From assembly GCA_022825385.1 (NCBI GenBank), contig JAJDWX010000009.1, positions 62,001 to 126,000 of the forward strand: DNA of 64,000 nucleotides, in the 5' to 3' direction. Positions within the stretch are counted from its first letter, which is position 1; every line of letters begins with the position of its first letter. The notes beneath the pieces are model-generated. The model worked only from the letters and a program-made list of their open reading frames with translations, ran no database searches and had not been told where the DNA came from. Positions 44,117-58,631 of the stretch are shown here, piece by piece. This DNA is from Rhodothermales bacterium (lineage in GTDB: Bacteria > Bacteroidota > Rhodothermia > Rhodothermales > VXPQ01). The position numbers and the translations under genes are program-made.

Positions 44117-45619
44117 TCAGGAGGGGGGTTCCCAGCCTTTGGCGCGTTCGAGTGCGCGGCGCCATTGCCGGAGCATGTTTTCGGCGATGTCTCGGTCCAT
44201 GGCGGGTTCGAATCGCTGATCTGCCTGCCATTGCGCGGCGATTTCTTCCTGGTCTGCCCAGAAGTTCGCCGCCAGGCCCGCAAGGTAGGCGGCGCCCAGG
44301 GCGGTCGTTTCGGCGATGCGGGGGCGCACTGCGGGGACGCCCAGCAAGTCGGACTGAAACTGCATGAGCAAATTGTTCGCCGTGGCGCCGCCGTCGACGC
44401 GCAGCTCGGCAAGGCGCAACGCGGCGTCTGCCTCCATGGCCCGAATCAGGTCCGCCGTCTGGAACGCGATGCTTTCCAGCGCGGCGCGGGCAATGTGTCC
44501 GGCTGTGGCGCCCCGCGTCAACCCGACAATGGTTCCTCGGGCGTACGGATCCCAGTGCGGCGAGCCCAGGCCGGTGAACGCCGGCACGAAATACACGCCT
44601 CCGTTGTCGGGGACGGAACGCGCCAGGGATTCTACGTCCGCCGAAGCCCGGATGAGGCCAAGCCCGTCTCGCAGCCATTGTACGACGGCGCCTGCGACAA
44701 ACACGCTTCCTTCCAGGGCGTATTCGGTGCGGTCCCCGATGCGCCAGGCAATGGTCGTGAGCAGGCGATGCTTCGATTGCACGGCTTGTTCGCCCGTTTG
44801 CATCAGGAGGAAACACCCGGTGCCGTAGGTATTCTTGACCATGCCCGGCTTTGCGCAGACCTGTCCGAACAGGGCGGCTTGCTGATCTCCGGCGATGCCC
44901 GCGATGGGGACGTTCGGCATAAACGCGCGGTCCGAGGTCCTGGCGTACACCTCGCTGGACGAGCGAACCTGGGGCAACAGGCTGCGGGGCACCCCGAAAA
45001 TACCGAGGAGTTCGTCGTCCCACTTGTTCGCGTGGATGTTGTAGAGCAGGGTGCGGGAGGCGTTCGTGGCGTCGGTTACGTGGACGCCGCCCGCCGTCAT
45101 GTTCCAGATCAGCCAGGAATCCACGGTGCCGAAAGCCAGTTCGCCCCGTTCCGCTTTGTCCCGGGCTCCCTCCACGTGGTCGAGCAGCCAGCGGACTTTG
45201 GTGCCCGAGAAGTAGGCGTCCAGCACAAGGCCTGTCCGGTCGCGAATCAGGTCGGCGTGTCCGGCTTCGCGGAGGCGGTCGCACATGCCTGCGGTGCGGC
45301 GGTCCTGCCATACGATGGCGTTGTGGATGGGTTGGCCGGTGCGGCGGTCCCATACGACGGTTGTTTCCCGCTGGTTCGCGACGCCGATGGCGGCTATGTC
45401 GGAGGCGGCGAGGTTTGCGCCCGCCAGCGCTTCGGCGGCTACGCCCGCCTGGGAAGACCATATTTCCTGCGGATCGTGCTCGACCCAGCCCGGTTGCGGG
45501 AAAATTTGCCGGAATTCGCGTTGCGCTACGCCCCGGATTGCCCCGCTGCGGTCGAACAGCATGGCCCGGGAACTGGTTGTGCCCTGATCGAGGGCGAGAA
45601 TATATCCTGGATCGGGCAT
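44117..45619 (-). CDS. glpK: Glycerol kinase
   Basis: Phosphorylates glycerol to glycerol 3-phosphate. FGGY-family landmarks: [18 protein letters not shown] (ATP phosphate loop, residues 7-24), [63 protein letters not shown] and a C-terminal [20 protein letters not shown]. The 500-residue length is standard. It is the promoter-proximal gene of the glpK-glpF pair and lies 64 bases downstream of the RelE-IF2C fusion gene at the edge of the accessory island. Confidence 0.97.
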
Positions 45620-45683
45620 GGGTCAGGGGCGGTTTGCAGGCGTTTGCGGGGTTGGCGGCGTTGCAATATAGGATACCCGGCGG

Positions 45684-46454
45684 TCAGTAGCTTTCGATGC
45701 GGTCCCCGACCCGGATGTTCGGGTAACTCCGGACGCCGATGCCGCATTCGTAGCCCTTCTTGACTTCCTGTACGTTCTCACGGAAATGCTTGAGCGAATC
45801 GATTTTTCCTTTATGGATCGCCATGCCGCCGCGGATGATGCGTATCTGGTCCTCGCAGGCGATTTTGCCTTCGAGCACATAGCAACCAGCCACTTTGCCG
45901 TTATAGTACAATTCGCGCACTTCCGCCGCGCCTTTCGCAGCGAGCCTGTTTTTGTCCGGGAAGGGTTCGCCTGGTTCGCGCTGTCCGTTGCGGGCGTTTG
46001 CAATGGCGCTGCGAAGGGCGGAGAGGGAGGCCAAACAGGTATCGACCGTCTTTTCTGCGAATGCAAGCAGGCCGAACCGGATCGATTTTTTCTGTTGCGT
46101 CGCGGGAACAGGAGGCGCTGTTTCCGGGGCGGGTTGCGTGGCTTTTGTCTCTTCCGTTGCGTTGTTTCCAGCGCGGGTTTTTGTTTTATGCCGTTTAGCC
46201 CATTGGTAGGCCTCGTCGTGGTGCCCCACATAGCGCAAACGCAGATGATTTTCGCGCTCGTTCCAGTCTGCAATAATGCGCATGTCGTGGTTGACGCGGG
46301 CGGACCAACCCCCGTCGCGCAACTTTTTCAAACGCAGTCCGCGCCCGCGGCGTTTGCTGACCAGATCGAAAACGGATGTCTTTACGGCTTTCTGTTCGTC
46401 GTTGGCAAGTCGGGCGAGGCTATCCAGAAAAGTGTCGTCAATGCGAAAATGCAT
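45684..46454 (-). CDS. RelE/ParE-like toxin domain fused to an IF-2 C-terminal domain
   Basis: One uninterrupted 256-residue frame joins two unrelated domains. Residues 1-90 resemble RelE/ParE-type proteins: FLDSLARLANDEQKAVKTSV, then LRLKKLRDGGWSARVNHDMR and LRYVGHHDEAYQWAKRH, the last being typical of RelE-like domains also found on some UvrD-type helicases. Residues 91-124 are a Pro/Thr-rich linker. Residues ~176-256 match the last domain of translation initiation factor IF-2: AAEVRELYYNGKVAGCYVLE, GKIACEDQIRIIRGG, SLKHFRENVQEVKKGYECGI and NIRVGDRIESY. In IF-2 that domain holds the formyl-Met end of initiator tRNA. No antitoxin gene is adjacent. I know of no described protein with this layout; the function is unknown. 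Confidence 0.8.
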   Translation of the reverse strand: MHFRIDDTFLDSLARLANDEQKAVKTSVFDLVSKRRGRGLRLKKLRDGGWSARVNHDMRIIADWNERENHLRLRYVGHHDEAYQWAKRHKTKTRAGNNATEETKATQPAPETAPPVPATQQKKSIRFGLLAFAEKTVDTCLASLSALRSAIANARNGQREPGEPFPDKNRLAAKGAAEVRELYYNGKVAGCYVLEGKIACEDQIRIIRGGMAIHKGKIDSLKHFRENVQEVKKGYECGIGVRSYPNIRVGDRIESY

Positions 46455-46529
46455 GGGATCTGCTTGCGAAACTGCGTTTTAACCGTAATATAAGGCAGCG
46501 CGGGTTGACGAGGGAGCGGAAGATGGGCG

Positions 46530-46661
46530 CTATCGCGCGTCGCCGGATCGCTTCTCGTCGTACCATTCTTTGCCTTTGCCGACGGCCTTGTTTACCTGAA
46601 CGGAAACGGTTTCTGCGACCTGGTGGGTAAGTTCCGCGGCCTGATCGGTGACGCGCGTTTT
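46530..46661 (-). pseudogene. Open-frame remnant without start codon
   Basis: Directly after the stop codon of the HicB-ATPase gene, another minus-strand frame reads VTDQAAELTHQVAETVSVQV then NKAVGKGKEWYDEKRSGDAR and stops at 46530. It has the regular amphipathic look of a coding sequence (YtxH-like proteins come to mind) but begins right behind a TAA with no ATG, GTG or TTG start. It is best seen as the surviving end of a lost gene. Confidence 0.35.
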
Positions 46662-46666
46662 TTATT

Positions 46667-48226
46667 TCAGGAATCTCCCAGGGCTTCGTGTTCCAAAAGC
46701 GCCGTCTTTCCAATCATTTCCACGATGCGGACGATGCATTCGTATCCGCTGGCGTCCGTAAGGCGCAATGGTTGATTCAGTTTGAAATGAACCGGTTGCT
46801 GTTTGCCTTCGTCGATTGAAATATTGCTTGCATGAAGATACATGCGGTCGTGCGGGTCGAGGATGGGGTTGAGCCGTCCGGTCAGGCGGGGTATATGGCC
46901 GGTTCCTTCCGGGAATAGTATGGATCCGCCTTTGGGCAACGGTTCCAGTTCCATGGAAAGCGGCTCCGGCGGACGCCAATTTCGCTCCACCTGGGCGGCG
47001 TGTCCGGGCGCTGCGCAGAAAACGGTGATGGGGAGTTCCGCGTGAAATCCAAAAGCGACTCGTCCAAACGTATCGGTTTTTTCTTCCATCCACGTCTTGT
47101 TGGGGTATAGTGCAACCACTTGGGCGCCTGCAAGCGGTTGGCCGCCCGCGACGACGTATATTTCCCCTTCGATCCCCGCTACCGGCGGCGAGGAGGCCGG
47201 GATCGTCAGCCGCAGTTCTGCGCCGTCTAGCAATTCATAGTCTGGATCGCGTCCCGTCAAGTCGCGTGTTTCTGTGTAGATGACAGGAACGCCTTCGCCG
47301 CGCTGCTCCATAAAATATTCCCGGCTTCCCGCCCCAGGAATATCTCCGACGGCAAGCCTGCGGAGAATGGAAGCCAGCGTTGCGTTGCGCATCGCTTGTC
47401 GGCTACGGATGGATTCTATGGCGAGCGTGTTGGGCAAGGCGCCCGGCGAGTACAATTCTATGCGGTCCTCAAAGACGAAGAGCCGTATTTTCGCATTTTC
47501 TATTGAATAATCCCGGTGGACCACCGCATTGACGATGGCTTCGAATACCGCGCGCGGACTGAATTGCGGGGTTTCTATCCGACCGGGGTCCTTGCGCGCC
47601 GCTACCCACGTATTGCGCTTGACGAAATCGACGGCCTCGCGAATCTGTTTGTCCAGCGGGCCGGTAATGGTTTTCGCGTCGTGTTGGCTTGCCTGGCCAA
47701 GGACGGCGCCGCGATAGCAAACCGCTTCGATTTTTGCGCTGCGTACGTACTCTTCTGGATGTGTTGTACAAAGCAATGCGCCCGCTACCGTTGCGCGGGG
47801 TACGCCGGTGTCGTCTTCCCGCACCAGGCCCAGTTTTGCGAGCTGGATCGTTCGGGGTTCGGTCGCGCGCGAACTCAGAAAACGATCCGTTAGCGCCTCG
47901 TCGAGCGTATTGGGGCCGGTTCCATCGATGACTATTTCGTCTGGCCCGAGCATTCCGGAACGCCCGCGTTGCTGAAATAGACGGTTTAGCGCCTCCGGGG
48001 ATAGTTCTCGTTTGGAACTGCCTTGCCGGGTCAGATACCCTCCGGGACTTTTGTGGACCAGGGCGCTTTGTTCGATCTGGACGGACAGACAGCCTTCAAT
48101 GGCTTCGCCGAGGTTTGCCAATACATCCTTGAGGGATTCGCCCTGCGTCGCGCATCCGGGGATAGAGGGTGCTTCTGCCCAATATCCGCCTTCTTCTGCT
48201 TTATGGATCACGACGTTCAGTTGCAC
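46667..48226 (-). CDS. HicB-like domain fused to the C-terminal part of an AlbA_2/HATPase_c_4 protein
   Basis: From the GTG at 48226 the first ~55 residues are a HicB antitoxin-type domain (VQLNVVIHKAEEGGYWAEAP, GCATQGESLKDVLANLGEAI). At about residue 60 the frame enters the end of a Schlafen/AlbA_2 domain (GGYLTRQGSSKRELSPEALN, then RLFQQRGR), whose DNA-binding front half is absent. A GHKL-type region follows, with the N-box FEAIVNAVVHRDY at ~228-240. Residues ~360-440 look like a carboxypeptidase-regulatory-type beta domain, and the C-terminus (GHIPRLTGRLNPILDPHDRM) is unassigned. There is no HicA gene. The layout suggests a chimera made by deletion between a hicB gene and an ATPase gene, kept in frame. 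Confidence 0.78.
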   Translation of the reverse strand: MQLNVVIHKAEEGGYWAEAPSIPGCATQGESLKDVLANLGEAIEGCLSVQIEQSALVHKSPGGYLTRQGSSKRELSPEALNRLFQQRGRSGMLGPDEIVIDGTGPNTLDEALTDRFLSSRATEPRTIQLAKLGLVREDDTGVPRATVAGALLCTTHPEEYVRSAKIEAVCYRGAVLGQASQHDAKTITGPLDKQIREAVDFVKRNTWVAARKDPGRIETPQFSPRAVFEAIVNAVVHRDYSIENAKIRLFVFEDRIELYSPGALPNTLAIESIRSRQAMRNATLASILRRLAVGDIPGAGSREYFMEQRGEGVPVIYTETRDLTGRDPDYELLDGAELRLTIPASSPPVAGIEGEIYVVAGGQPLAGAQVVALYPNKTWMEEKTDTFGRVAFGFHAELPITVFCAAPGHAAQVERNWRPPEPLSMELEPLPKGGSILFPEGTGHIPRLTGRLNPILDPHDRMYLHASNISIDEGKQQPVHFKLNQPLRLTDASGYECIVRIVEMIGKTALLEHEALGDS

Positions 48227-48279
48227 TGTACTTGGCTTTGGGTAGCCTCGTCTGTGAAACAGGCCAGATCGCGTGGCGA

Positions 48280-49362
48280 TTAGGACGCATCGTTTTCTTC
48301 CACTTCTTCGGACATTGCACGTCTGTATTCGTCGGCGAAGGCTTTTTCCATGGTCTGGACAAATTCGATCAGGTCCTGCTTGTGTTTTTGCCACGATTCC
48401 TCGTCCAGACGGCAAAACCACTGTTCTCGTACGCGTTCCGTTGCATATACATGTATCGCAGGCTTGGTTTCAAACGGGATCGCGTTTTTCAGCTGTTCGA
48501 AATGCTCGTAGCAAAGGTCGACGGTCCCGGGCGGAAAGATGATCTGCACCTTCCCGTACTCATTGAGCGTAATGAAATGTGATGCACGGACATGCACATT
48601 TTCAGGCAATATGATTGTGCGTTGGCAGTAGGTGATCCCGGATTTCGTGTAGTACGATCTCACGCAGTAGTTCAGTGCTTTTTCTGCATTCTGTAACAGA
48701 TTTGTCACTCCGTATTCAGCGGCCTTGCGAAGTACTTCCTGTTTGCAGTCCTTTTGAGTCGAACCGCGACGACCGTTATTCGATGTCTGATCATCTGATG
48801 TTTGCACCTGACGGGCCAGCAGGATGGCGTCGCCGTGGGCGTAGCCATGGAAGGTTGCTATGCCGATGTCGATGTCTCGCTCCGCCAGATAGTCGATCAT
48901 GCGGCGGGCATGCTCGTCAGCTCCGAGGCCGACCAGCATCATTTGTACGGGTTTAAGCGCATCTTCCCACTGGTTTGCATACCATTCGTCGAAATCCGTG
49001 ATTTTGTCTATCCCGTTCTTGCCGGATTCCTCGGCAATGAGCGTTGCAAGTTTCGATTCGGACAGGCTTTCCAGGTAGCTGCCGTAATCCAGAACCTGCG
49101 CCACGGCGTTTCGCGTCAATTTTTCGCGCTTGAGTTCAAAGACCGTCAGTTTGCCCTCATTGTCAATGCCCAGCAGGTCGATATAGCCCGTTGCAACCGG
49201 AACCTGTCTGCCAACCAGCGTCAGGCCGTGCATGAGCATACCGGGGTTTGCTGTCAGGATGTCCTCCAGCATTTCTTCCGTACCCACCTGCTTGGCGGGG
49301 GCCAGTTTCGTAGACTTGCGGGATTCCCGTTCAATTTGCCAGATTCCGATGTTGGTTTTCAT
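48280..49362 (-). CDS. NucS/DUF91-like PD-(D/E)XK nuclease-fold protein
   Basis: 360 residues. The N-terminal ~130 residues have the nuclease core found in NucS-like proteins: TEEMLEDILTANPGML, Asp62 in VATGYIDLLGIDNEG, Glu76 and Lys78 in KLTVFELKREKLTRNAVAQV, and LDYGSYLESL. The D...E-x-K set is complete. The C-terminal two thirds, with AERDIDIGIATFHGYAHGDA and LCYEHFEQLKNAIPFETKPA, is not recognised and may bind DNA or a partner. The gene lies between a DUF1828/1829 gene and the HicB-ATPase chimera, all on the minus strand, which supports a defence-related role without proving it. Confidence 0.78.
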   Translation of the reverse strand: MKTNIGIWQIERESRKSTKLAPAKQVGTEEMLEDILTANPGMLMHGLTLVGRQVPVATGYIDLLGIDNEGKLTVFELKREKLTRNAVAQVLDYGSYLESLSESKLATLIAEESGKNGIDKITDFDEWYANQWEDALKPVQMMLVGLGADEHARRMIDYLAERDIDIGIATFHGYAHGDAILLARQVQTSDDQTSNNGRRGSTQKDCKQEVLRKAAEYGVTNLLQNAEKALNYCVRSYYTKSGITYCQRTIILPENVHVRASHFITLNEYGKVQIIFPPGTVDLCYEHFEQLKNAIPFETKPAIHVYATERVREQWFCRLDEESWQKHKQDLIEFVQTMEKAFADEYRRAMSEEVEENDAS

Positions 49363-49431
49363 ATGATTTCAGGGGTGGTTCGGGTTGGCTGGACAATTTA
49401 TTGGAGTTTTAAGGTGTAATCCGTATGCAAC

Positions 49432-50220
49432 TCAGGCCGCCGCGCGTTGCGTAATTTTCCGGTGGAAATCTTCGTTGGCGTCGAGCGAAGAAATCATGTC
49501 TCCGCCGACATCCGAGAGTCTGGCGAGGTCCACTCTGGGAATTTCAGGTTGATTCTGAAAAACGAGAATCGATTCGAACCGGATCTTATGCAGGTGAAAG
49601 TGCGACAACATGATCGTTGCTAACCGCGCTTTGTCCTGAGTGGGTATGCCGTACACGAACAACGGGGTATCGTTTTTGCCCTCGATTCGGTAGTCCACCG
49701 GGTACACCTGCGCATTGTCTATTTCCAGATGATAATTCCGCTTTATTTTGGCCTCGTCTACCAGATCAGAGAGCAGGTCGTGCAGGTCGTCGTAGAATGC
49801 GGAGCCGACATTAGATCGGGACAGAAACGTCAGATCGTAGACCTGGGTCAGGGCTTGCCCGAACCGGAAGATGGCTTCCGGCAATCGTTCGGGAGGCGTA
49901 TCGTAACACAACGCGCCGCCACCCTTCTCCCATTGGAGTCCGCTTTCGTTCATAATGCGTTCGAGCAGCATGCCCCGTGTTCCGTCCATGAACCCATCAA
50001 TGTCATGATCATAGCTAATGTGCATGAGCGTATGGCCCTTGTCCGACAGTCGCAACCCGCCCGTATCTGTTTGCGACAGGTGGATCGGGTAATGGTCGCC
50101 GTCGGGAAACCGGAAGTGCGTGTGCAACATCACCGCGCCGTCCGGGCGCCGCTCTATCCTGACGTCTTCGCAAAGACGCTCGCACAGGAGTTTCTGGAGT
50201 TTGTCAAGGGCAAGCGTCAT
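49432..50220 (-). CDS. DUF1828 and DUF1829 domain protein
   Basis: The 262-residue protein starts at the ATG at 50220 (MTLALDKLQKLLCERLCEDV). The first half shows the DUF1828 pattern (THFRFPDGDHYPIHLSQTDT, GGLRLSDKGHTLMHISYDHD) and the second half the DUF1829 pattern (YPVDYRIEGKNDTPLFVYGI). The biochemical function of these domains is not established; they recur near restriction and toxin-antitoxin genes. Its start codon overlaps the stop of the DUF6978-like gene (ATGA), so the two are translationally coupled. Confidence 0.8.
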   Translation of the reverse strand: MTLALDKLQKLLCERLCEDVRIERRPDGAVMLHTHFRFPDGDHYPIHLSQTDTGGLRLSDKGHTLMHISYDHDIDGFMDGTRGMLLERIMNESGLQWEKGGGALCYDTPPERLPEAIFRFGQALTQVYDLTFLSRSNVGSAFYDDLHDLLSDLVDEAKIKRNYHLEIDNAQVYPVDYRIEGKNDTPLFVYGIPTQDKARLATIMLSHFHLHKIRFESILVFQNQPEIPRVDLARLSDVGGDMISSLDANEDFHRKITQRAAA

Positions 50221-50693
50221 AGCGCTAATGTGGGTTCGTCGTGCCGGGCGTGAATCCCGCTCACCTGAAAATCCTTCATCAGACAAGCCAGCGCGCCTTC
50301 AAGCGAAGTGAATCGGTCGGTTTCTTCGGCATTCGATTCGGGTTTCTCGCCGTTCGCGATCGCTTGTGCCGAGGCGCAATGGATGTGCGGGCGGTAAGCA
50401 ATGTCTCCGTGCACATGGCCTGGTCCATTGTAGCGCGCCAGCGTGAGGGGCGAGCCGCCTCGGGGAATATACTTGATTCCGCAGGAAAAATCGTATTTAT
50501 CGGCGAGATTCTGGCGCTGATAGACCGTGAAATACGAATTTGGGTCCTGCTCCGAGGATGCCTGGTAGGTGCGCTGTTTGTGCACCGGGCGCATCGTAGG
50601 TTTGCGCAGCCACCGTGCCTTTGGGTTCGTTACCCGCTTTGGCATGTCACGGAGCGCGTCGAGTTCTTCGTCCGTGTAGTGTTTCGTGCCCAT
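50217..50693 (-). CDS. DUF6978-like protein, partner of the DUF1828/1829 gene
   Basis: 158 residues from the ATG at 50693, which has a GAGGAAG ribosome site. The core SCGIKYIPRGGSPLTLARYN, GPGHVHGDIAYRPHIHCASA and EETDRFTSLEGALACLMKDF resembles DUF6978, a family of unknown function often paired with DUF1828/DUF1829 proteins. A basic N-terminus (PKARWLRKPTMRPVHKQRTY) could bind nucleic acid. It is the first gene of the minus-strand group that runs to glpK. Confidence 0.7.
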   Translation of the reverse strand: MGTKHYTDEELDALRDMPKRVTNPKARWLRKPTMRPVHKQRTYQASSEQDPNSYFTVYQRQNLADKYDFSCGIKYIPRGGSPLTLARYNGPGHVHGDIAYRPHIHCASAQAIANGEKPESNAEETDRFTSLEGALACLMKDFQVSGIHARHDEPTLAL

Positions 50694-51207
50694 GGGTCTT
50701 CCTCGCAAATGGGATTACACGTTTCCATGGGGGCGTAAACGGGGTTGCGGCTCCGGCGTGTTTCAATCGCTTCGGCCAGGGCCGCTCCCGACTATGATTA
50801 TTCACCCTGTACGGCCCGCAGGGTTCCGTTCTGGACTGGAAAAAGCCTTCGCTTAAAATATTTAACCTTGGAATTTTGGTGCCTAATAAAATAAGGTTGG
50901 CTTGTTTTGCGGGGCAAGGAAGGCCCTGCCGGGGGTGTTGTGCAAGCGGCTCATCTTGTCCGTGGCGCTTGCATTTCTTCTTTAGAAAAATTCTTGTACG
51001 ATCAACCCGAACCATCTCTAAGGTCGCAATCCTATACCTTAAAAGCCCAAAATCCTGTTCAGACAACCCGAACCACCTCCCTGGACAGGCACTTCCATGA
51101 ATTTATAATTTTTTGCCCCAGGCGGGGAACCATTCGGAAACTGCGCGTAGAAAATATCAATCATACATGGCTGGAAACGGGTCTCGGCCTGTTTCTGTTA
51201 TGGAGGC
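50694..51207. other. Intergenic region with a pair of direct repeats
   Basis: No gene is supportable here. The segment 50840-51110 is AT-richer than its surroundings. CAACCCGAACCATCTC at 51003-51018 and CAACCCGAACCACCTC at 51064-51079 are near-identical direct repeats 61 bases apart, a possible operator pair or remnant. The promoter of the DUF6978-DUF1829 pair should lie at the left end. Confidence 0.45.
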
Positions 51208-51245
51208 AAAAGCCCCGCCTGCCTTGCGCAGCGCGGGGCTTTTAT
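51208..51245 (-). terminator. Bidirectional rho-independent terminator
   Basis: AAAAGCCCCGC (51208-51218) and GCGGGGCTTTT (51233-51243) form a perfect 11-bp stem with a 14-base loop and T-runs on both strands. It is placed to end the minus-strand restriction-modification operon. Confidence 0.8.
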
Positions 51246-51260
51246 TTGCGGGGCAGGGCG

Positions 51261-51317
51261 TCAGACGTTGATTATCTCCTGCTCCACGTAGGGGGGGAGT
51301 ATCTCGATCGGCAGGTT
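51261..51317 (-). pseudogene. C-terminal remnant of an MntA-like nucleotidyltransferase gene
   Basis: The minus strand codes for NLPIEILPPYVEQEIINV followed by a stop, nearly the same as the end of the intact mntA-like gene at 55028-55318 (NLRVEIRPYVEREVINV). The DNA is also similar across ~55 bases. Nothing upstream of it matches, so only the gene's tail remains, possibly left by recombination between two such modules. Confidence 0.55.
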
Positions 51318-51436
51318 TGGCGCGCCTCCGCCGCTTATGGGGCTTGCATTGCTTGCCTGAACACCTTATATTATGGGTTGCGACTAGAGGGCCGTTCCAA
51401 AAAGCGGCTTACTCTCTGGGCTAGTCGTTCCGGTTT

Positions 51437-51685
51437 TCAAGGCCAGTGCTGAACCTTCAGGTCGGCGCTGGCCTTTATTTTTTCCCAAATCTCGAATACT
51501 CGGGCGTCGTGCCACTTTGCAGGCGTCTCGTTCCGGGCGAGATAGCGTCCCGCCATGTACACCACCACGTCCGCAAGCTGAAGAAAGCGGCTGTGGTGTG
51601 ATCGGGTGAAATAGACGGTATCCACCAATCGGCCCAGTGGTCTTCCGAAATGCATTGGCGTTTTACCTGAAGTTCTGCAAAGCAC
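51437..51685 (-). pseudogene. C-terminal fragment of a DUF3800 protein
   Basis: The last ~65 residues of this frame (VDTVYFTRSHHSRFLQLADV, VVYMAGRYLARNETPAKWHD and an end in VQHWP) match the C-terminal region of DUF3800 proteins, including the HSRxxQLAD motif. The conserved N-terminal half with the D-E-S motif is missing; the sequence starts immediately after the mod gene. DUF3800 genes are common passengers in restriction and defence loci. The fragment is probably non-functional. Confidence 0.6.
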
Positions 51686-51697
51686 GCCCCCCTGGTA

Positions 51698-52771
51698 TTA
51701 CGCCCGAAACACCTTCATCACTTCGTCGCCGAGGTGGTTGATTACCTTGACTGCAATGCGGCCGGAGGAGGGGCGGTCGAAGGGGCGGGAGACGTCGCTG
51801 CGTAGCGTTGACCAGGCTTCCGCGTTGATTTCGGCCTTGAGCGTCGTTTTGAGCGATTTGTAGGGATCGCTGGCGCCGAGGAAGTAGGCGTGGCGGACGA
51901 AAAAACTTTCCCCATTGTAGTCGGTATCGACGAACCAGCAAGCAATGCCGTCCGTATCGTCGCTGCGGATTTCGCCGCTGTTCGGGTGGAATACATCGAC
52001 CCCGTTGATCTTGATCTGGACTTGATCGTTTTCTGCTTCAAGGATGTCGATGTCCGGCTCGCCGAAGATGACAAAAAGATTGCCCTTCCCTGTGTTCTTG
52101 AGGTCGTCGGCCATGTGCAGGTCGGCGTTCATGCGGGCCTTGAGGATGGGGACGCGACCCAGTTTGCTGAATTCCGAGGCGTGGGCGTCGTAGTTGAAGG
52201 CGCAGGCGATGAGCACGTCGAATCCGGCGTCCGCAGCCTCGCGGGCGGCTTCCACAAGGTCGGGCCGGGAAACAGTGCCGAATTCCGGGCCTATGAAGAT
52301 GCCCGCCCGCTTTTCGCCGCTTGCGGCGCCATTATTTTCGGCGTAGCGCCCTTCCGCGCAGACGAGTTGGCCCGGCCACGGCCTGAGTACGGAAAAGGCG
52401 ATGCGATCCTCCTTGTGCGCCTGCTGTACGCCCGTGGTTTTGAGGTGGTCGAGGATCATTTCAGCGAAGCCCTGCTGTGCGCCGTACCCGAGTTTGGCTT
52501 CGGCGACATGGCCTATGAGTTCGTCGTCTTCGTCAACTCCCAGCAGGCGGTGCGGCGACAGGCTTTCTACCGTGAACGGTCCGGCGACGCGGACGGTTTT
52601 TTTGTCTGCGTACGGCTTGTCGTAGAGGTATTCGTATTCGGCCTGGGCGGCGATGGAAGCGTCAATGGCCTGTTGCCGGGCGATGCGGGCTTCCCAAAAA
52701 CGTTCGAGCGCCTGTTTGGCCTCGTCGCTCCAGTGGGCATCCGGTTCACGCGGGACTTCCCATTCGAGCAA
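51698..52771 (-). CDS. C-terminal half of the phase-variable DNA methyltransferase (mod), out of frame
   Basis: 357 residues from a TTG, but the same frame stays open back to the CA repeat at 52880 (EFLVAAGGRAGRRIDFAASP, DETEALPSGETAPRN). It corresponds to the C-terminal half of large type III-like methyltransferases: LLEWEVPREPDAHWSDEAKQ, YEYLYDKPYADKKTVRVAGP, FTVESLSPHRLLG and the ending NHLGDEVMKVFRA. It belongs to the same gene as 52837-54663 but is in another frame. It is probably not made as a separate protein in this state. Confidence 0.8.
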   Translation of the reverse strand: MLEWEVPREPDAHWSDEAKQALERFWEARIARQQAIDASIAAQAEYEYLYDKPYADKKTVRVAGPFTVESLSPHRLLGVDEDDELIGHVAEAKLGYGAQQGFAEMILDHLKTTGVQQAHKEDRIAFSVLRPWPGQLVCAEGRYAENNGAASGEKRAGIFIGPEFGTVSRPDLVEAAREAADAGFDVLIACAFNYDAHASEFSKLGRVPILKARMNADLHMADDLKNTGKGNLFVIFGEPDIDILEAENDQVQIKINGVDVFHPNSGEIRSDDTDGIACWFVDTDYNGESFFVRHAYFLGASDPYKSLKTTLKAEINAEAWSTLRSDVSRPFDRPSSGRIAVKVINHLGDEVMKVFRA

Positions 52772-52836
52772 GGCGTTGCGCGGCGCCGTTTCGCCGGACG
52801 GCAGCGCTTCTGTCTCGTCGGGCGAGGCGGCAAAGT

Positions 52837-54663
52837 CTATGCGGCGACCCGCCCGGCCGCCCGCGGCGACGAGAAATTCTGTGTGTGTGTGTGTGTGTGT
52901 GTGTGACTATCCTCTTGTATGTGATTCTTTCTGTAACTCCTTGCGTCCCTTTGCATTACGGCGTTGAAACCATCCAGCGCCGCTTCCACTTCCGGTTGTT
53001 TTTGCTCCCAGATTACGTCGATTTCGGCGTTGTTGGCGATGGCTTTGAGCGTGATATGCGGGACGCGTTCGTACACGAAACCATGGCGAATATTGTTATA
53101 CGTCGGTTTTTCCGAGGGGGCCTTGCGGGCGAGCGCGGCTTCCTTGATTTGCCCTTCGCGACTGTCGGCGAGCAGATACCAGGGATAGCGGGCGCCCATG
53201 ATGCGGGCGCGGGCCAGCGCGAGCGCAACCCGCGACGTGTCGATGGTGATCCAGCGGCGGCCCCATTGCTCGGCGACGTATGCGGTGGTGCCGGAGCCAC
53301 AGGTGGGGTCGAGTACGAGATCGCCGGGGTCCGTGGCCATGAGGATGCAGCGGGAGACCGTCAGTTCACTAGTTTGGACTACGTAGGTCTTCTGCGTAAA
53401 AGTCCCGATCACGGTATCTTGCCATATGTTTGTTAGCGGCTGGACCGGGAACCAGTTTTTGAAGCGTTTATATGCGAGGACGCGGGGCAGAGCTAGTAGT
53501 TTGTTGGCCCGGGATAGCCTTTCAAGGCCTTGTTGGCTAGTTGACCAACCGCGAGTTGTAGACGGCGAGAATTCGCGACCTTCGAATGAAAGATCGAATC
53601 GGCTCGAGTCTCCCCCTGTCTGTGATGTGATGTCTGCTGCGCGAAACCGCCGTCCGTCGTCGGCTGTAGTTCCTTCACGAAGCTCAACCGTTGACAAACG
53701 TCGGCAGGTTCCGTCCTCGGTTTCGATCCACCGAAATGTACCCAACTCAGTTGTTTCGACCTTCTCGGTCCATAATCCCCGGTACTTCATTCTGTCCCGG
53801 CTCTTAGCGTACCAGATCAGAAAGTCAACGACCGGAGCTAGTGTGCCTGTTGTTTGCGCACTGGTCTTCCGGAACGGGATGATGGACACAAAATTCTCCT
53901 CCCCAAACACCTCATCCATCAGCGCCCGCACCCGGTGTACGTTTTCGTCCCCGATTTGCACGAAAACGGAGCCGCTTTCCGTCAACAAATCCCGGGCTAC
54001 GGTCAGTCGGTCCCGCAGGTACGTCAAATACGAATGAATCCCGTCCCGCCACGTATCCCGGAACGCCTTCACTTGCTCTGGCTCGCGCGTAATGTGCTCG
54101 GCCGCGCCGTCTTTTACGTTCCGGCTGGTCGTGGACCACTGAAAATTCGAGTTGAACTTGATGCCGTAGGGCGGGTCTATGTAGATGCACTGTACCTTGC
54201 CGCGCAGCCCCTCCCGCTCGGCAAGCGACGCCATCGCTTGCAACGAATCGCCAAGAATCATCCGGTTGGACCAGTTGGCGTCGTGCTGGTAGAATTCGGT
54301 CCGGGCATCCTCGCTCGGCAAGCCATTAAAATCCGCAAACAAATCTGCCTGTGCGGTTGCCTCGTCCTCCTCGGTTTCCTTGCTCCGCCGCCGCAAATCG
54401 TCGATCAGCGCCTTCGGATGCACTTTTTCCTGAATGAAAAGCGGAGGCGCCTGCGCGATCAATTCCGCCGAGTCTTGCGCATCTTTGCCGCGCCAGACGA
54501 GTTGCGGGTCAAGGTCGCGATTGCGACGTTCGTACGCCACCTGGACGGGATGGCGGTCGTCGTCTTCCAGTACGCCTTGATATTCCGCCGTGGGAATATT
54601 CTTGCGGGAAGCCTCGTCGTGCTTGAGGGTTTTGATCTTTTGGGTCGATTTCCGTTTTGGCAT
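52837..54663 (-). CDS. N-terminal half of type III-like DNA methyltransferase (mod), ended early by repeat frameshift
   Basis: An adenine methyltransferase of the beta order: DPPYGIKFNSNF (DPPY at 163-166) comes before the AdoMet-binding LDPTCGSGTTAYVAEQWGRR (~450). Together with the res gene it should form a type III-like restriction-modification system, methylating the recognition site. After NHIQEDS the frame runs into (CA)13, read as HTHTHTHT, then QNFSSPRAAGRVAA and a stop at 52837. The C-terminal half continues in a different frame. With 12 or 15 CA units the two halves would join into one protein of 987 or 989 residues. The start abuts the hepT-like stop codon. Confidence 0.9.
   Translation of the reverse strand: MPKRKSTQKIKTLKHDEASRKNIPTAEYQGVLEDDDRHPVQVAYERRNRDLDPQLVWRGKDAQDSAELIAQAPPLFIQEKVHPKALIDDLRRRSKETEEDEATAQADLFADFNGLPSEDARTEFYQHDANWSNRMILGDSLQAMASLAEREGLRGKVQCIYIDPPYGIKFNSNFQWSTTSRNVKDGAAEHITREPEQVKAFRDTWRDGIHSYLTYLRDRLTVARDLLTESGSVFVQIGDENVHRVRALMDEVFGEENFVSIIPFRKTSAQTTGTLAPVVDFLIWYAKSRDRMKYRGLWTEKVETTELGTFRWIETEDGTCRRLSTVELREGTTADDGRRFRAADITSQTGGDSSRFDLSFEGREFSPSTTRGWSTSQQGLERLSRANKLLALPRVLAYKRFKNWFPVQPLTNIWQDTVIGTFTQKTYVVQTSELTVSRCILMATDPGDLVLDPTCGSGTTAYVAEQWGRRWITIDTSRVALALARARIMGARYPWYLLADSREGQIKEAALARKAPSEKPTYNNIRHGFVYERVPHITLKAIANNAEIDVIWEQKQPEVEAALDGFNAVMQRDARSYRKNHIQEDSHTHTHTHTQNFSSPRAAGRVAA
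52880..52905. repeat. (TG)13/(CA)13 dinucleotide repeat inside the mod gene
   Basis: Thirteen perfect TG units on the plus strand, CA on the coding strand. Since the repeat follows a complete codon (AGT), only unit numbers divisible by three restore the frame of the downstream half; 13 leaves it out of frame. Confidence 0.95.
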
Positions 54664-55035
54664 CTATGCAGCGTCCTCGCTGGTGGTGTTCAACAGATTT
54701 TGCAATGCCGGGAGCAGCTGCGGGATTGCATCCTGAATGATAGTCCAAATAATATGATCGTTTAGGCCCAAATATCCATGAGCCAAGCGATTTCTCGTTC
54801 CCACAATCGCGTACCAGGGGATATCGGGATATTCCTCCCGCACCTTGTCCGGGATGTGTGTGGCTGCTTCGCCGATCAATTCTAGATTTCGTAGCGTGGC
54901 GTCATACGTGAGTCCGTCCGCGACGAAGGCGTCCTGATCCATATCATGGGTATAGGATAACACCTTTTCGCAGAATTCGATCATATCCCCTACATAGAAA
55001 CGCCATTCCCGCCCTTCGTGGCTGGTATCAGACAT
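54664..55035 (-). CDS. hepT: HepT-like toxin (DUF86)
   Basis: A 123-residue helical protein of the HepT/HEPN type. The catalytic motif RNRLAHGY (Arg81-x4-His86, then Tyr88) is intact, with the preceding ATLRNLELIGEAATHIPDKV. HepT proteins are RNases that are silenced when the partner MntA adds AMP groups to the Tyr of this motif. Its start overlaps the mntA-like stop codon by 8 bases, and its stop touches the mod start codon, so it is embedded in the restriction-modification operon. Confidence 0.9.
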   Translation of the reverse strand: MSDTSHEGREWRFYVGDMIEFCEKVLSYTHDMDQDAFVADGLTYDATLRNLELIGEAATHIPDKVREEYPDIPWYAIVGTRNRLAHGYLGLNDHIIWTIIQDAIPQLLPALQNLLNTTSEDAA

Positions 55036-55318
55036 TGATTACCTCCCGCTCCACATAGGGGCGTATTTCGACCCGCAGGTTTTGGTTTATCGCCATATCC
55101 ACCGGGCGCCCCAACAAATCTTCGAGATAGCCTTGCGCTCCGAAATAACGCCGCCAATCGGGAGACCTGTCAAACTGCACCAGAATATCGACGTCGCTAT
55201 CGTCGGTCCCCTGATTTCGGGCAAAGGAGCCGAACAGGGCGAGCCGGGTGACGCCGTAGCGTTGCGCCAGGGTCGCCTTGTGCGTTCGGAGCAATTTGAG
55301 CACGTCGTCTCGCGTCAT
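55028..55318 (-). CDS. mntA: MntA-like minimal nucleotidyltransferase antitoxin
   Basis: 96 residues with the nucleotidyltransferase motif LALFGSFARNQGTDDSDVDI, in which Gly30-Ser31 and Asp42-x-Asp44 fit GSx10DxD. In MntA/HepT pairs this enzyme inactivates the HEPN toxin by AMP transfer. The ATG overlaps the res stop codon (ATGA), and the gene's end overlaps hepT, giving strict coupling res-mntA-hepT-mod. A decayed copy of its last codons is at 51261-51317. Confidence 0.9.
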   Translation of the reverse strand: MTRDDVLKLLRTHKATLAQRYGVTRLALFGSFARNQGTDDSDVDILVQFDRSPDWRRYFGAQGYLEDLLGRPVDMAINQNLRVEIRPYVEREVINV

Positions 55319-58300
55319 TGCGTTTCCTCGTTGGCTGTCAGAACAGGCTGGGCGATTCTTTGCTCAACCATGCGGTTGAAATCGGGTCCGATCTTCTCCT
55401 TAAAATCCGAAAGAATATCGTATACGTCCGTGAATTCGGCAAAATCCCAGCGCCCGAAACCGCCATGACTGTTTACCCCGGGAATCCAGCAGGTTTCCAT
55501 CGTCGCTTTCTTTTCCTTGGCGTCTTCCCGCCGATATCCCTTGATTTCGACGATCAGGTGCAGCAAGTCGTCGTTGCCTCGTCCATCGTCGATGAGCACG
55601 ATAAAATCCGGGATGTACGTACGGGTTTCCGAGCCGTACAGGTAAGGCACTTCCAGGCCGAGGTTGTAATTCTTGACGTAAGCCCGAACTTGCGGATGGG
55701 ATTCCGCAACCCGGCAAAATTCCGCTTCCCAGTCGCTGTCCAGAATAGCCCAATTGATATGGCAACGGCTATGATCGGTTTTGTAGCGGCTGGTTTTAGA
55801 TGTGTTGAAATGCACCTGCGCGGTGGAGCTGACGGGATTATACGGGTCCAGCACGGCCTTGACGGGCCGATTGCCCTTTTCCGCCCGTGTAATGCCCGCC
55901 GTGATGCGCTCGCAAGCCATGTCTTTTAGTTCCTGGTACATGAGTTGGGCCGGGTAGGTACCGCCCTTGCAGACCAGGCATTCGTCAAGCCACTGTCTGG
56001 TAATGCGCTTGAGTTGACCAAAGAGGTATGCTTTGGGCGCCTCGTCCGGGTCCCGCCACTTCGTATAAAGCAGATGTTGGGTGAGATTATAAACCAGGGT
56101 GTTGCGCCGGCGCGTTTGCGTATGTTCCAGGTCGAGGTCTACGCCCTCGCCGATAATCCCCTGATTTCGGGTAATGGACGGTCCGATCATGTCTGGCGTG
56201 AGTTCCAGCACGGAGTCGGTGTTGAACTCGGCTCGAAGTCGTTCTTCCGGCAATTCGACGCGATACCCCGCTACGCGAGGGAAGCGAATTTCCAGCGCAT
56301 CCCGGTCGGGTCGTATTGCTTTTACTTGTACGGTTTCGAGCGGCGGACGCGGTTGCACCGCCACAGGCTTTGCCGTAAAGTCGAAAGGAATGCCCAGCAC
56401 GTCCGCGTATTCTACATTGAAAAGACCTTTTTCGTTCAATTCGTAGGACTGCCTCCGCAGCGCGCGCCCGACCACCTGTTCGCATAGCAACTGGGTTCCA
56501 AAGGCGCGAACGCCCAGCACATGGCTGACCGTATTCGCGTCCCATCCTTCCGTAAGCATCGAAACCGATACGACGCAACGAATCGAATCCCCCAGCCGTC
56601 CGGGTTTCCCCACGGTATTCATGACTTCGCGGAGCAGGTCCTGATCGCTGATTCGCTCGGCCTTAAGCCAGTCGCCACGTTCGATACTTTCCCTGCGAAA
56701 CCGCTCGATTTCGTTGGCGGCCATCTTGCGGAAATTCCTGTCCAGCGCATCCCCGGATTCCAGTTGTACGCTGTCGATCAATAAGGTCCGGGGCCGGGGA
56801 ATCGGGTTGCCGTCCTCGTCGAAATTGCGAAACAACGGCAGTCGCCCGTTTTCGAACGCCTTGCCTCCGTCGCCTTGTTCTCGATGGAACCCGGAGATGT
56901 AATCGTAGACCAGCTTGGAAGTCGAGGTGTTGTTGCAGACCACAATGAAGCAGGGCGGCACAGGAATTCCTGCTTCTTCCCAGGCATTGAATTCTTTTTC
57001 GTAATGGCCATACAGGGCCTCCAGCGCGGTCTGGAGTTCCACAGGCAGGCTCAAGGGGTCAAGCGCTTTGCCCGCGCCCCGTTTCTTTTTCGGCATATGG
57101 GGGCTTATGTGCTCCCACAACTTGCGAAATTTGGGCATGTCGCCGCCGGGAATATTGTCCGCCACAGGGACCCGGGGCAACTTCACAATGCCGCATTCGA
57201 TGGCGTCCATCAGGGAAAAATCGCTCATCGTCCAGGGAAACAAGGTGCCCTCCGCATAGCCCGATCCGCGCAGGAAGAAGGGGGTTGCCGAAAGGTCTAT
57301 CACGCGCCGAACATTCAGTTTTCTGCTTGCTTTTTCAATGCCCGAAATCCACAATCGGGCGGCTTCGGCATTCTTTTGGGCTTCTTTGCGGTCGTCGCCC
57401 TTGAGGTCGCCTTCCTCTTTTTCTTCGTCCGGCCTTTCGCGATAGCAATGGTGCGCTTCGTCGTTGAGGACCATAATATTCTTTATCCTCATGAGTTCGG
57501 GCATCACCCTTTGCAGCATTTCCCCTTCGGTTTCGAGGGTGTTCAACTCTGAGCCTCGCCCCTGAAGCAGGGCGCGTCCCCCTTTGGATAGTTCGAGGCG
57601 TTCGCGCTCCTTGAAAGCGTGATAATTGGTGATGACGATTTTGGCCTTCCCCAGGTCGGGGAGCATGTCGTTCGGGACCAGTTCGCGCCGTTGATAGTAG
57701 CTATCCGGATCGTTTGGCTGCAACACGCGCAAACGGTCCTTGATGGTAATGCCCGGCGTAATGACCAGAAAGCCGTGGGTGAATTTGCTACTCTGCGGGC
57801 GGCGCACCGCATTGATGGTCTGCCAGGCGATCAACATGGCCATGACCATCGTTTTTCCTGCGCCAGTCGCAAGTTTGAGCGCAAGGCGAGACAGTTCGGG
57901 ATTGGCGTCGCGGTTCGCGTCCTCAAGATGCTTGAGAAATCCTTTTATTTCCTTTCCCTTGCCTGGCGACGCTACCTCGGTAAGCCAAATGACGGTTTCG
58001 ACTGCCTCGACCTGGCAAAAGAAGGGCCGAATGTCACTGAAGCGATGCGTTCGCCAGTGCCGGAGCAGACGGGCGGTTTCCGGCGTTACGCCCTGTTGAT
58101 CGGGAGGGAGGTCGCGCCACCGATCAACTTGCCTGCGTACGCCATTGATAATGTCCTTCAGGTATTGCTGGTCCCTGGTTTCCAGTTTCTTCGCTGCTTC
58201 GTCGAACACCAGCGAAGATTGTTTTTGAGCGGAGCCCTTTTGTTTTTTGGCCCTGGGGATGGGCGTGATGAAATCGGCGGACCTGCGCTGTTTGACGATA

Positions 58301-58398
58301 CGCTGGGTAGGCTGGCCGTCCGGGTCCAGTTCCCAATGCCGGTCGGGACGTTCGTAGGGCGAATTGAGAACAGGTTGTTCGAAGAATTGGTCGCTCAA
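55315..58398 (-). CDS. Type III-like restriction endonuclease subunit (BPTD_3080-like Res)
   Basis: A 1027-residue helicase-nuclease. The SF2 helicase core shows Walker A ALKLATGAGKTMVMAMLIAW (motif at ~177-183), motif II IMVLNDEAHHCYRERP, motif III DLSATPFFLRGSGY and motif VI LLCEQVVGRALRRQSYEL. Near the C-terminus a PD-(D/E)XK nuclease is complete: YIPDFIVLIDDGRG and LHLIVEIKGYRREDAKEKK. In such systems Res cuts DNA only with Mod present, so the OFF state of mod should also disable restriction. It is the first gene of the operon and lies 145 bases downstream of tRNA-Ser(GCU), which is read in the same direction. Confidence 0.93.
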   Translation of the reverse strand: MSDQFFEQPVLNSPYERPDRHWELDPDGQPTQRIVKQRRSADFITPIPRAKKQKGSAQKQSSLVFDEAAKKLETRDQQYLKDIINGVRRQVDRWRDLPPDQQGVTPETARLLRHWRTHRFSDIRPFFCQVEAVETVIWLTEVASPGKGKEIKGFLKHLEDANRDANPELSRLALKLATGAGKTMVMAMLIAWQTINAVRRPQSSKFTHGFLVITPGITIKDRLRVLQPNDPDSYYQRRELVPNDMLPDLGKAKIVITNYHAFKERERLELSKGGRALLQGRGSELNTLETEGEMLQRVMPELMRIKNIMVLNDEAHHCYRERPDEEKEEGDLKGDDRKEAQKNAEAARLWISGIEKASRKLNVRRVIDLSATPFFLRGSGYAEGTLFPWTMSDFSLMDAIECGIVKLPRVPVADNIPGGDMPKFRKLWEHISPHMPKKKRGAGKALDPLSLPVELQTALEALYGHYEKEFNAWEEAGIPVPPCFIVVCNNTSTSKLVYDYISGFHREQGDGGKAFENGRLPLFRNFDEDGNPIPRPRTLLIDSVQLESGDALDRNFRKMAANEIERFRRESIERGDWLKAERISDQDLLREVMNTVGKPGRLGDSIRCVVSVSMLTEGWDANTVSHVLGVRAFGTQLLCEQVVGRALRRQSYELNEKGLFNVEYADVLGIPFDFTAKPVAVQPRPPLETVQVKAIRPDRDALEIRFPRVAGYRVELPEERLRAEFNTDSVLELTPDMIGPSITRNQGIIGEGVDLDLEHTQTRRRNTLVYNLTQHLLYTKWRDPDEAPKAYLFGQLKRITRQWLDECLVCKGGTYPAQLMYQELKDMACERITAGITRAEKGNRPVKAVLDPYNPVSSTAQVHFNTSKTSRYKTDHSRCHINWAILDSDWEAEFCRVAESHPQVRAYVKNYNLGLEVPYLYGSETRTYIPDFIVLIDDGRGNDDLLHLIVEIKGYRREDAKEKKATMETCWIPGVNSHGGFGRWDFAEFTDVYDILSDFKEKIGPDFNRMVEQRIAQPVLTANEETQ

Positions 58399-58543
58399 AA
58401 CGTGGTGCTCCCGAAACCGGATTTACGCTATGATTTATTGGGCCGCCGCAACCTTGATCGCTGCTATGTCCGCATCGGTTATATCATAACGATATTACGC
58501 CACATAAACCACCCCAAATACCCCCAATGCCACCCCAAATCAG

Positions 58544-58631
58544 CGGAGAGGGAGGGATTCGAACCCTCGATACGGGGTTGCCGTATACTCCCTTAGCAGG
58601 GGAGCGCCTTCAGCCACTCGGCCACCTCTCC
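58544..58631 (-). tRNA. tRNA-Ser (anticodon GCU)
   Basis: On the minus strand GGAGAGG pairs with CCTCTCC in the acceptor arm, the anticodon loop is CTGCTAA (anticodon GCT), a long variable arm (GTATACGGCAACCCCGTATC) identifies a serine tRNA, and the T-arm contains GGTTCGAATC. Discriminator G, no encoded CCA. It stands between the atp operon and the restriction island and could be the island's integration site. The rest of the gap to atpG (58632-58733) shows nothing. Confidence 0.97.

Follow-up and report, generated by a model that had tools for sequence, protein, structure and literature searches.

The window, a 64,000-nucleotide stretch of a Rhodothermales draft genome (G000, 49 contigs), carries a gene for a 256-aa protein in which a RelE-fold domain is joined through a linker to the C2 domain of initiation factor IF-2 (Table 1). 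We take this fusion to be a real, selected chimera, neither produced by misassembly nor recently formed. It is the last gene, at the glpK-side end, of an accessory island with defence genes. Our preferred reading, to which we give a probability of roughly 35%, is that the chimera is cargo of this island and may serve as an effector, or as a regulator, directed at the initiation of translation. The original prediction had read a RelE/ParE-like domain and IF-2 domain IV in a single frame. Both domain assignments were right, as judged by profile matches and by AlphaFold2 and Foldseek, and its interpretation as a whole was partly supported.

Table 1. The fusion gene, its parts and the surrounding island (positions in the window)
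Feature	Position	Strand	Evidence
glpK (glycerol kinase), core gene, 64 bp downstream of fusion	44117..45619	-	Pfam FGGY; syntenic in G001, G002, G003, G004
Accessory (defence) island, 12.9 kb, between tRNA-Ser(GCU) and glpK	45630..58542	.	blastn against sister loci; junction sequences
RelE-like/IF-2 C2 fusion gene, 256 aa	45684..46454	-	open frame, ATG start; orthologue; amino-acid changes below neutral expectation
IF-2 C2 (fMet-tRNA-binding) domain, residues ~173-256	45687..45938	-	TIGR00487, 1d1n
Linker (residues 93-172), rich in Pro/Thr/Ala, its later portion predicted helical (low confidence)	45939..46178	-	pLDDT below 50
RelE-fold domain, residues 1-92 (about), RelE-UvrD (GajB/ArmD-like) helicase N-terminal kind	46179..46454	-	44-56% identity to helicase N-domains; AlphaFold2 and Foldseek
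3' remnant of 875-aa gene	46495..46663	-	169 bp match the end of G001 contig C44 at 89%
HicB-like + HATPase_c_4 + CarboxypepD_reg frame, cargo upstream of fusion	46667..48421	-	Pfam, PADLOC
NucS_C nuclease-like protein (PADLOC PDC-S11), cargo	48280..49362	-	PADLOC; found too in G001 and G004 islands
DUF1828 protein (PADLOC PDC-M24B), cargo	49432..50286	-	PADLOC; G001 island has one too
DNA N6/N4 methyltransferase gene (mod), two frames	51698..54663	-	Pfam N6_N4_Mtase; PADLOC MTase_III on second frame; sequence
Type III restriction subunit (ResIII + RE_endonuc), cargo	55315..58398	-	Pfam
tRNA-Ser(GCU), island edge	58543..58631	-	ARAGORN, Rfam

The RelE-fold domain and its helicase relatives

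The N-terminal part alone gave no Pfam match above the cut-off. HigB-like_toxin was matched by six of seven members of the N-domain family (best E = 4e-4), and a match to YoeB was weak. With an alignment that took in 38 helicase N-domains, AlphaFold2 modelled residues 1-93 confidently (block pLDDT mostly 85-94; 66 for residues 31-40). The best PDB matches in Foldseek were the toxins RelE1, RelE2, T. thermophilus RelE, YoeB and YafQ (probability 1.00, TMt 0.6-0.7). The predicted elements (E2-5, H7-14, H18-33, E42-44, E50-53, E58-65, E70-78 and H79-95) follow the beta-alpha-alpha-beta4-alpha topology of the RelE superfamily (BECR fold). The toxin label of the original prediction was correct as regards the RelE fold but missed the specific kind, which is the N-terminal domain of RelE-UvrD defence helicases.

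The fusion retains 38 of the 52 positions conserved at a level of at least 93% in 79 helicase N-domains. R53, D57, R59, HHD at 78-80 and Y83, which form part of a conserved polar core, are among the residues kept. Of the four histidines invariant in the 79 domains, two are replaced in both known copies of the fusion (H43 by K and H65 by N), and for this reason ribosome-dependent mRNA cleavage by the RelE domain cannot be assumed. A cognate antitoxin gene, a feature of the RelE superfamily, is not adjacent: glpK lies downstream, and the upstream genes differ between the two species that carry the fusion. The absence of a neighbouring antitoxin, noted from the window alone, thus holds for both species, which keep no such gene beside the fusion. 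Like the type II toxins RelE, YoeB, YafQ and HigB, the protein is predicted to adopt the RelE (BECR) fold. Unlike them, it lacks an antitoxin, has an added C-terminal translation-factor domain and has some conserved histidines replaced.

A GTDB scan with a profile of the N-domain, keyed on exact short peptide patterns, gave 510 relatives, of which the best 80 were examined. One of these 80 (L060) was the orthologue of the fusion; for each of the remaining 79, the frame was followed from its match onwards. Full-length frames of 543-719 aa made up most of the 79, two of them without a simple Walker pattern match. Nine were short: five of them reach a contig end, four (L063, L089, L114 and L123) resemble shifted or truncated helicase genes, and none has an IF-2 C2 motif. 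All 24 relatives in viral contigs (IMG/VR) were helicase frames. Apart from the orthologue, no IF-2 fusion was present among these approximately 100 nearest relatives (the best 80 of 510 in GTDB, and IMG/VR). No further fusion was found in 114 genomes of the order by full-protein search, in 245 genomes of the class or in a phylum sample of 394, and the fusion is known from two genomes only. A phage or plasmid source was considered and set aside, as no record with both domains was found.

The helicases in question are exemplified by ArmD of ARMADA type II, a system in which protection requires all four genes (PMC12458937). In the available part of that paper, the mutants reported for ArmD are in Walker A and B and none in the RelE domain is described. 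The likeness to ArmD is drawn from the description given there, and the sequence identities are to other helicase N-domains. The fusion shares with ArmD/GajB-like helicases the N-terminal RelE-like domain, which is 44-56% identical to the N-domains of helicases from many phyla. It differs from them in having the linker and IF-2 C2 in place of the UvrD helicase body with its Walker A motif, which is absent from the 256 residues. Among the island genes annotated with Pfam and PADLOC, none was recognised as an ArmA-C partner. A defence setting and an association with a DNA methyltransferase are common to both. For example, in plasmid NZ_CP123223 (H1) a helicase of this kind lies directly behind a DNA methyltransferase, and in plasmid NZ_CP076367 (H6) one small gene separates the methyltransferase from the helicase behind it. 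In plasmid NZ_CP101284 the gene listed before the helicase encodes a hypothetical protein.

The linker and the IF-2 C2 domain

A Pro/Thr-rich linker had been noted between the two domains, and this was confirmed, with alanine also abundant. Database alignments of the fusion to infB reach about residue 143, upstream of C2. For residues 126-173, homology to infB upstream of C2 was not significant in a shuffle test (P = 0.22-0.28). The relation of the linker to the IF-2 helix that precedes C2 is uncertain.

Residues 173-256 matched TIGR00487 (IF-2) with E = 4e-26, and residues 175-256 matched PDB 1d1n, an NMR structure of IF-2 C2, with E = 1.3e-20. The C-terminal part also matched Pfam GTP_EFTU_D2 above its cut-off. 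The original prediction had allowed for a poor match of this part to IF-2, and the match proved strong. It covers positions 491-577 of the TIGR00487 profile only, and its score of 91.8 bits falls short of the 424.4 required by the full model; no G2 GTPase domain was found in the fusion. Like IF-2, the fusion has a C2 domain, in which 26 of 36 near-invariant positions are retained. The retained positions include the conserved Cys and Glu-Cys-Gly motifs (AGCYV at 189-193 and GYECG at 234-238), which we take to be features of IF-2 C2 as an fMet-tRNA binder. Unlike IF-2, it has no GTPase, C1 or N domains and its tail is cut, so that the protein ends in GDRIESY without the tail of the resident IF-2.

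A further difference from IF-2 concerns R847 of the E. coli factor (R700 in G. stearothermophilus), whose equivalent is His223 in both fusions. The substitution R847G greatly lowers the affinity of E. coli IF-2 for fMet-tRNA (PMC8709274). Because the equivalent residue is His in both fusions, binding of fMet-tRNA by the C2 part cannot be assumed, and of the two functions suggested in the original prediction, guiding an RNase to initiation complexes and sensing fMet-tRNA, one is weakened. To judge from the residues kept and lost, both folds look preserved while both presumed activities are in doubt.

The C2 part of the AlphaFold2 model was of low confidence, because the alignment there consisted of the two fusions only. 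In a tree of C2 domains the fusion branch was very long, and its grouping with the infB genes of the genus was not rejected (p-AU 0.17). With so long a branch and only 48% identity to the resident infB, the donor of the C2 part is not resolvable. A recent accidental fusion with the resident infB, which would give near-identity, is ruled out by the 48% figure together with the orthologue in a second species.

The island and the age of the fusion

When the window was compared with sister loci by blastn, homology ended at about 45622-45632 and restarted at 58543. In the sister species G002 and G003 the site is empty, with glpK coming almost immediately after the atp genes and tRNA-Ser(GCU). In G004 the site is occupied by different cargo, and the fusion is absent. 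In G001, a second species of the same uncultured Rhodothermales genus (MAG record JAJECT010000024.1), other defence-type genes (GmrSD, methyltransferase, SIR2 and PIN) occupy the site, and the fusion is again at the glpK end. The location of the fusion at this end in both G000 and G001 indicates one place kept in both species. That the gene is defence-island cargo was absent from the original prediction.

In the window, the mod gene is interrupted near 52880-52905 by a (CA)13 tract, with the rest of the protein in another frame; from its sequence, this type III mod gene looks phase-variable. The HicB-like/HATPase_c_4 frame gave partial matches to Argonaute-system models in PADLOC. The 875-aa gene of which the window has a remnant is intact in G001, directly upstream of the fusion. 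Contigs C44 and C36 of G001 have 114 identical bases in common.

Several small features of the locus were also recorded. The T-stem of tRNA-Ser(GCU) shows a paired change, with GAGGG/CCCTC in G000 and G001 and GTGGG/CCCAC in other species. In G001 the fusion is preceded by a repeat of about 250 bp (L025 1-138 and the tail of L154) that is 85-87% like positions 2251-2519 of the window; its inverted ends are AAGGATACTCTGAT and it resembles a MITE. Within the fusion gene of G000, positions 46018-46030 repeat 13 bp from the 3' end of tRNA-Ser, which raised the possibility that the fusion was made at a tRNA attachment site. We rejected this, since G001 differs there and the copy is probably due to chance.

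The G001 copy of the fusion, also MAG-derived, is 89% identical to that of the window and lies in the same genomic place; the original prediction had left room for a fusion found in no other genome, and this is not the case. Between the two species, dS was 0.150 for the fusion, 0.150 for glpK and 0.133 for infB. A dS equal to that of core genes indicates that the fusion has been kept since the species split. Amino-acid changes numbered 29 against 40.6 expected when the 60 observed changes were placed at random (P = 0.0005). When the parts were tested separately, the deficit was significant in the IF-2 part (P = 0.003) and not in the RelE part, which had only five of the 60 changes (P = 0.22). 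DNA differences were unevenly distributed, at 5 of 276 bases in the RelE part and 55 of 492 in the remainder (Fisher p = 5e-7). Neither copy has a stop, and the sole gap is in-frame, of three codons. The dN/dS of the fusion was 0.42, whereas core genes had values of 0.05-0.13 and two island genes 0.27-0.29, and the constraint is only moderate.

An assembly chimera is unlikely in view of two MAGs with diverged copies and like gene order. An antisense frame at 45786-46493 (+) was rejected as a gene, as it is broken into shorter frames in G001.

Possible roles of the chimera

In the preferred reading, the N-terminal domain is that of a RelE-UvrD defence helicase of the ArmD/GajB-like kind and the C-terminal domain that of an infB gene. 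The chimera would act on translation, most likely on initiation, and could do without an antitoxin if the protein controls itself internally or has little activity of its own. A review points out that certain RelE toxins might be classed as inhibitors of initiation, and that it is not settled whether they and the initiation factors compete for the A site (PMC7180214). More specifically, the chimera might be a defence-island toxin whose captured IF-2 C2 brings a RelE-type RNase to initiator tRNA or to initiation complexes; we consider this quite unlikely. We know of no RelE toxin for which such C2-guided targeting has been described.

The losses in both domains could be expected of a non-catalytic regulator or decoy, in which RelE has lost its cutting activity and the role of the protein is sensing or buffering, not poisoning. 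The C2 barrel might then bind a partner other than fMet-tRNA, or bait a phage protein that attacks IF-2. We regard such a role as possible but rather unlikely. The equivalent of R847 and both H43 and H65 are lost in the two species while the folds look kept, neither species has an antitoxin, and the gene is in a defence island, all of which would suit it; the part of the RelE polar core that is retained (R53, D57, R59, HHD 78-80 and Y83) counts against it. Doubtful to much the same degree is a relic, in which rearrangement of the island would have joined two scraps of genes into a chimera that drifts under weak constraint without a selected function. The island does hold scraps, such as the remnant of the 875-aa gene just upstream, and the high dN/dS and the occurrence in two genomes only are consistent with drift. 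Against drift stand the absence of stops, the single in-frame gap of three codons, the deficit of amino-acid changes (P = 0.0005) and a dS like that of core genes.

Another possibility is a self-contained toxin, in which the IF-2 part is a built-in brake that frees the RelE RNase upon meeting initiator tRNA or initiation complexes. Single-gene fusions of a RelE-fold toxin with its antitoxin are described in the main text of a survey of multidomain toxins (Gerdes 2025, PMC11980606), and a separate antitoxin gene is not conserved beside the fusion. However, no antitoxin family in the profile libraries searched gave a match to C2, and the predicted structure of the linker and C2 is too uncertain for showing contact between the halves. 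We consider this explanation improbable.

AtaT and VapC are toxins of initiator tRNA. If the preferred reading is right, translation initiation would be a target common to them and the fusion, although folds and chemistry differ and no homology is claimed. The multidomain toxins of the BECR fold covered by the Gerdes survey (2025, PMC11980606) are similar in having a RelE-fold domain inside a larger protein and a defence context; initiation factors and helicases are absent from the main text of that survey of RelE/ParE toxins. At the level of titles and abstracts, no protein joining RelE with IF-2 or another translation factor was found, and the RelE plus IF-2 C2 architecture is new to the literature searched.

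The fusion joins a translation-factor domain to a toxin fold within a defence island. Here the RelE domain of ArmD-like helicases occurs apart from the helicase, and, as no RelE-domain mutant of ArmD is described in the available part of PMC12458937, its activity could be tested alone. If active, the protein would be an example of a RelE-type nuclease aimed at initiation.
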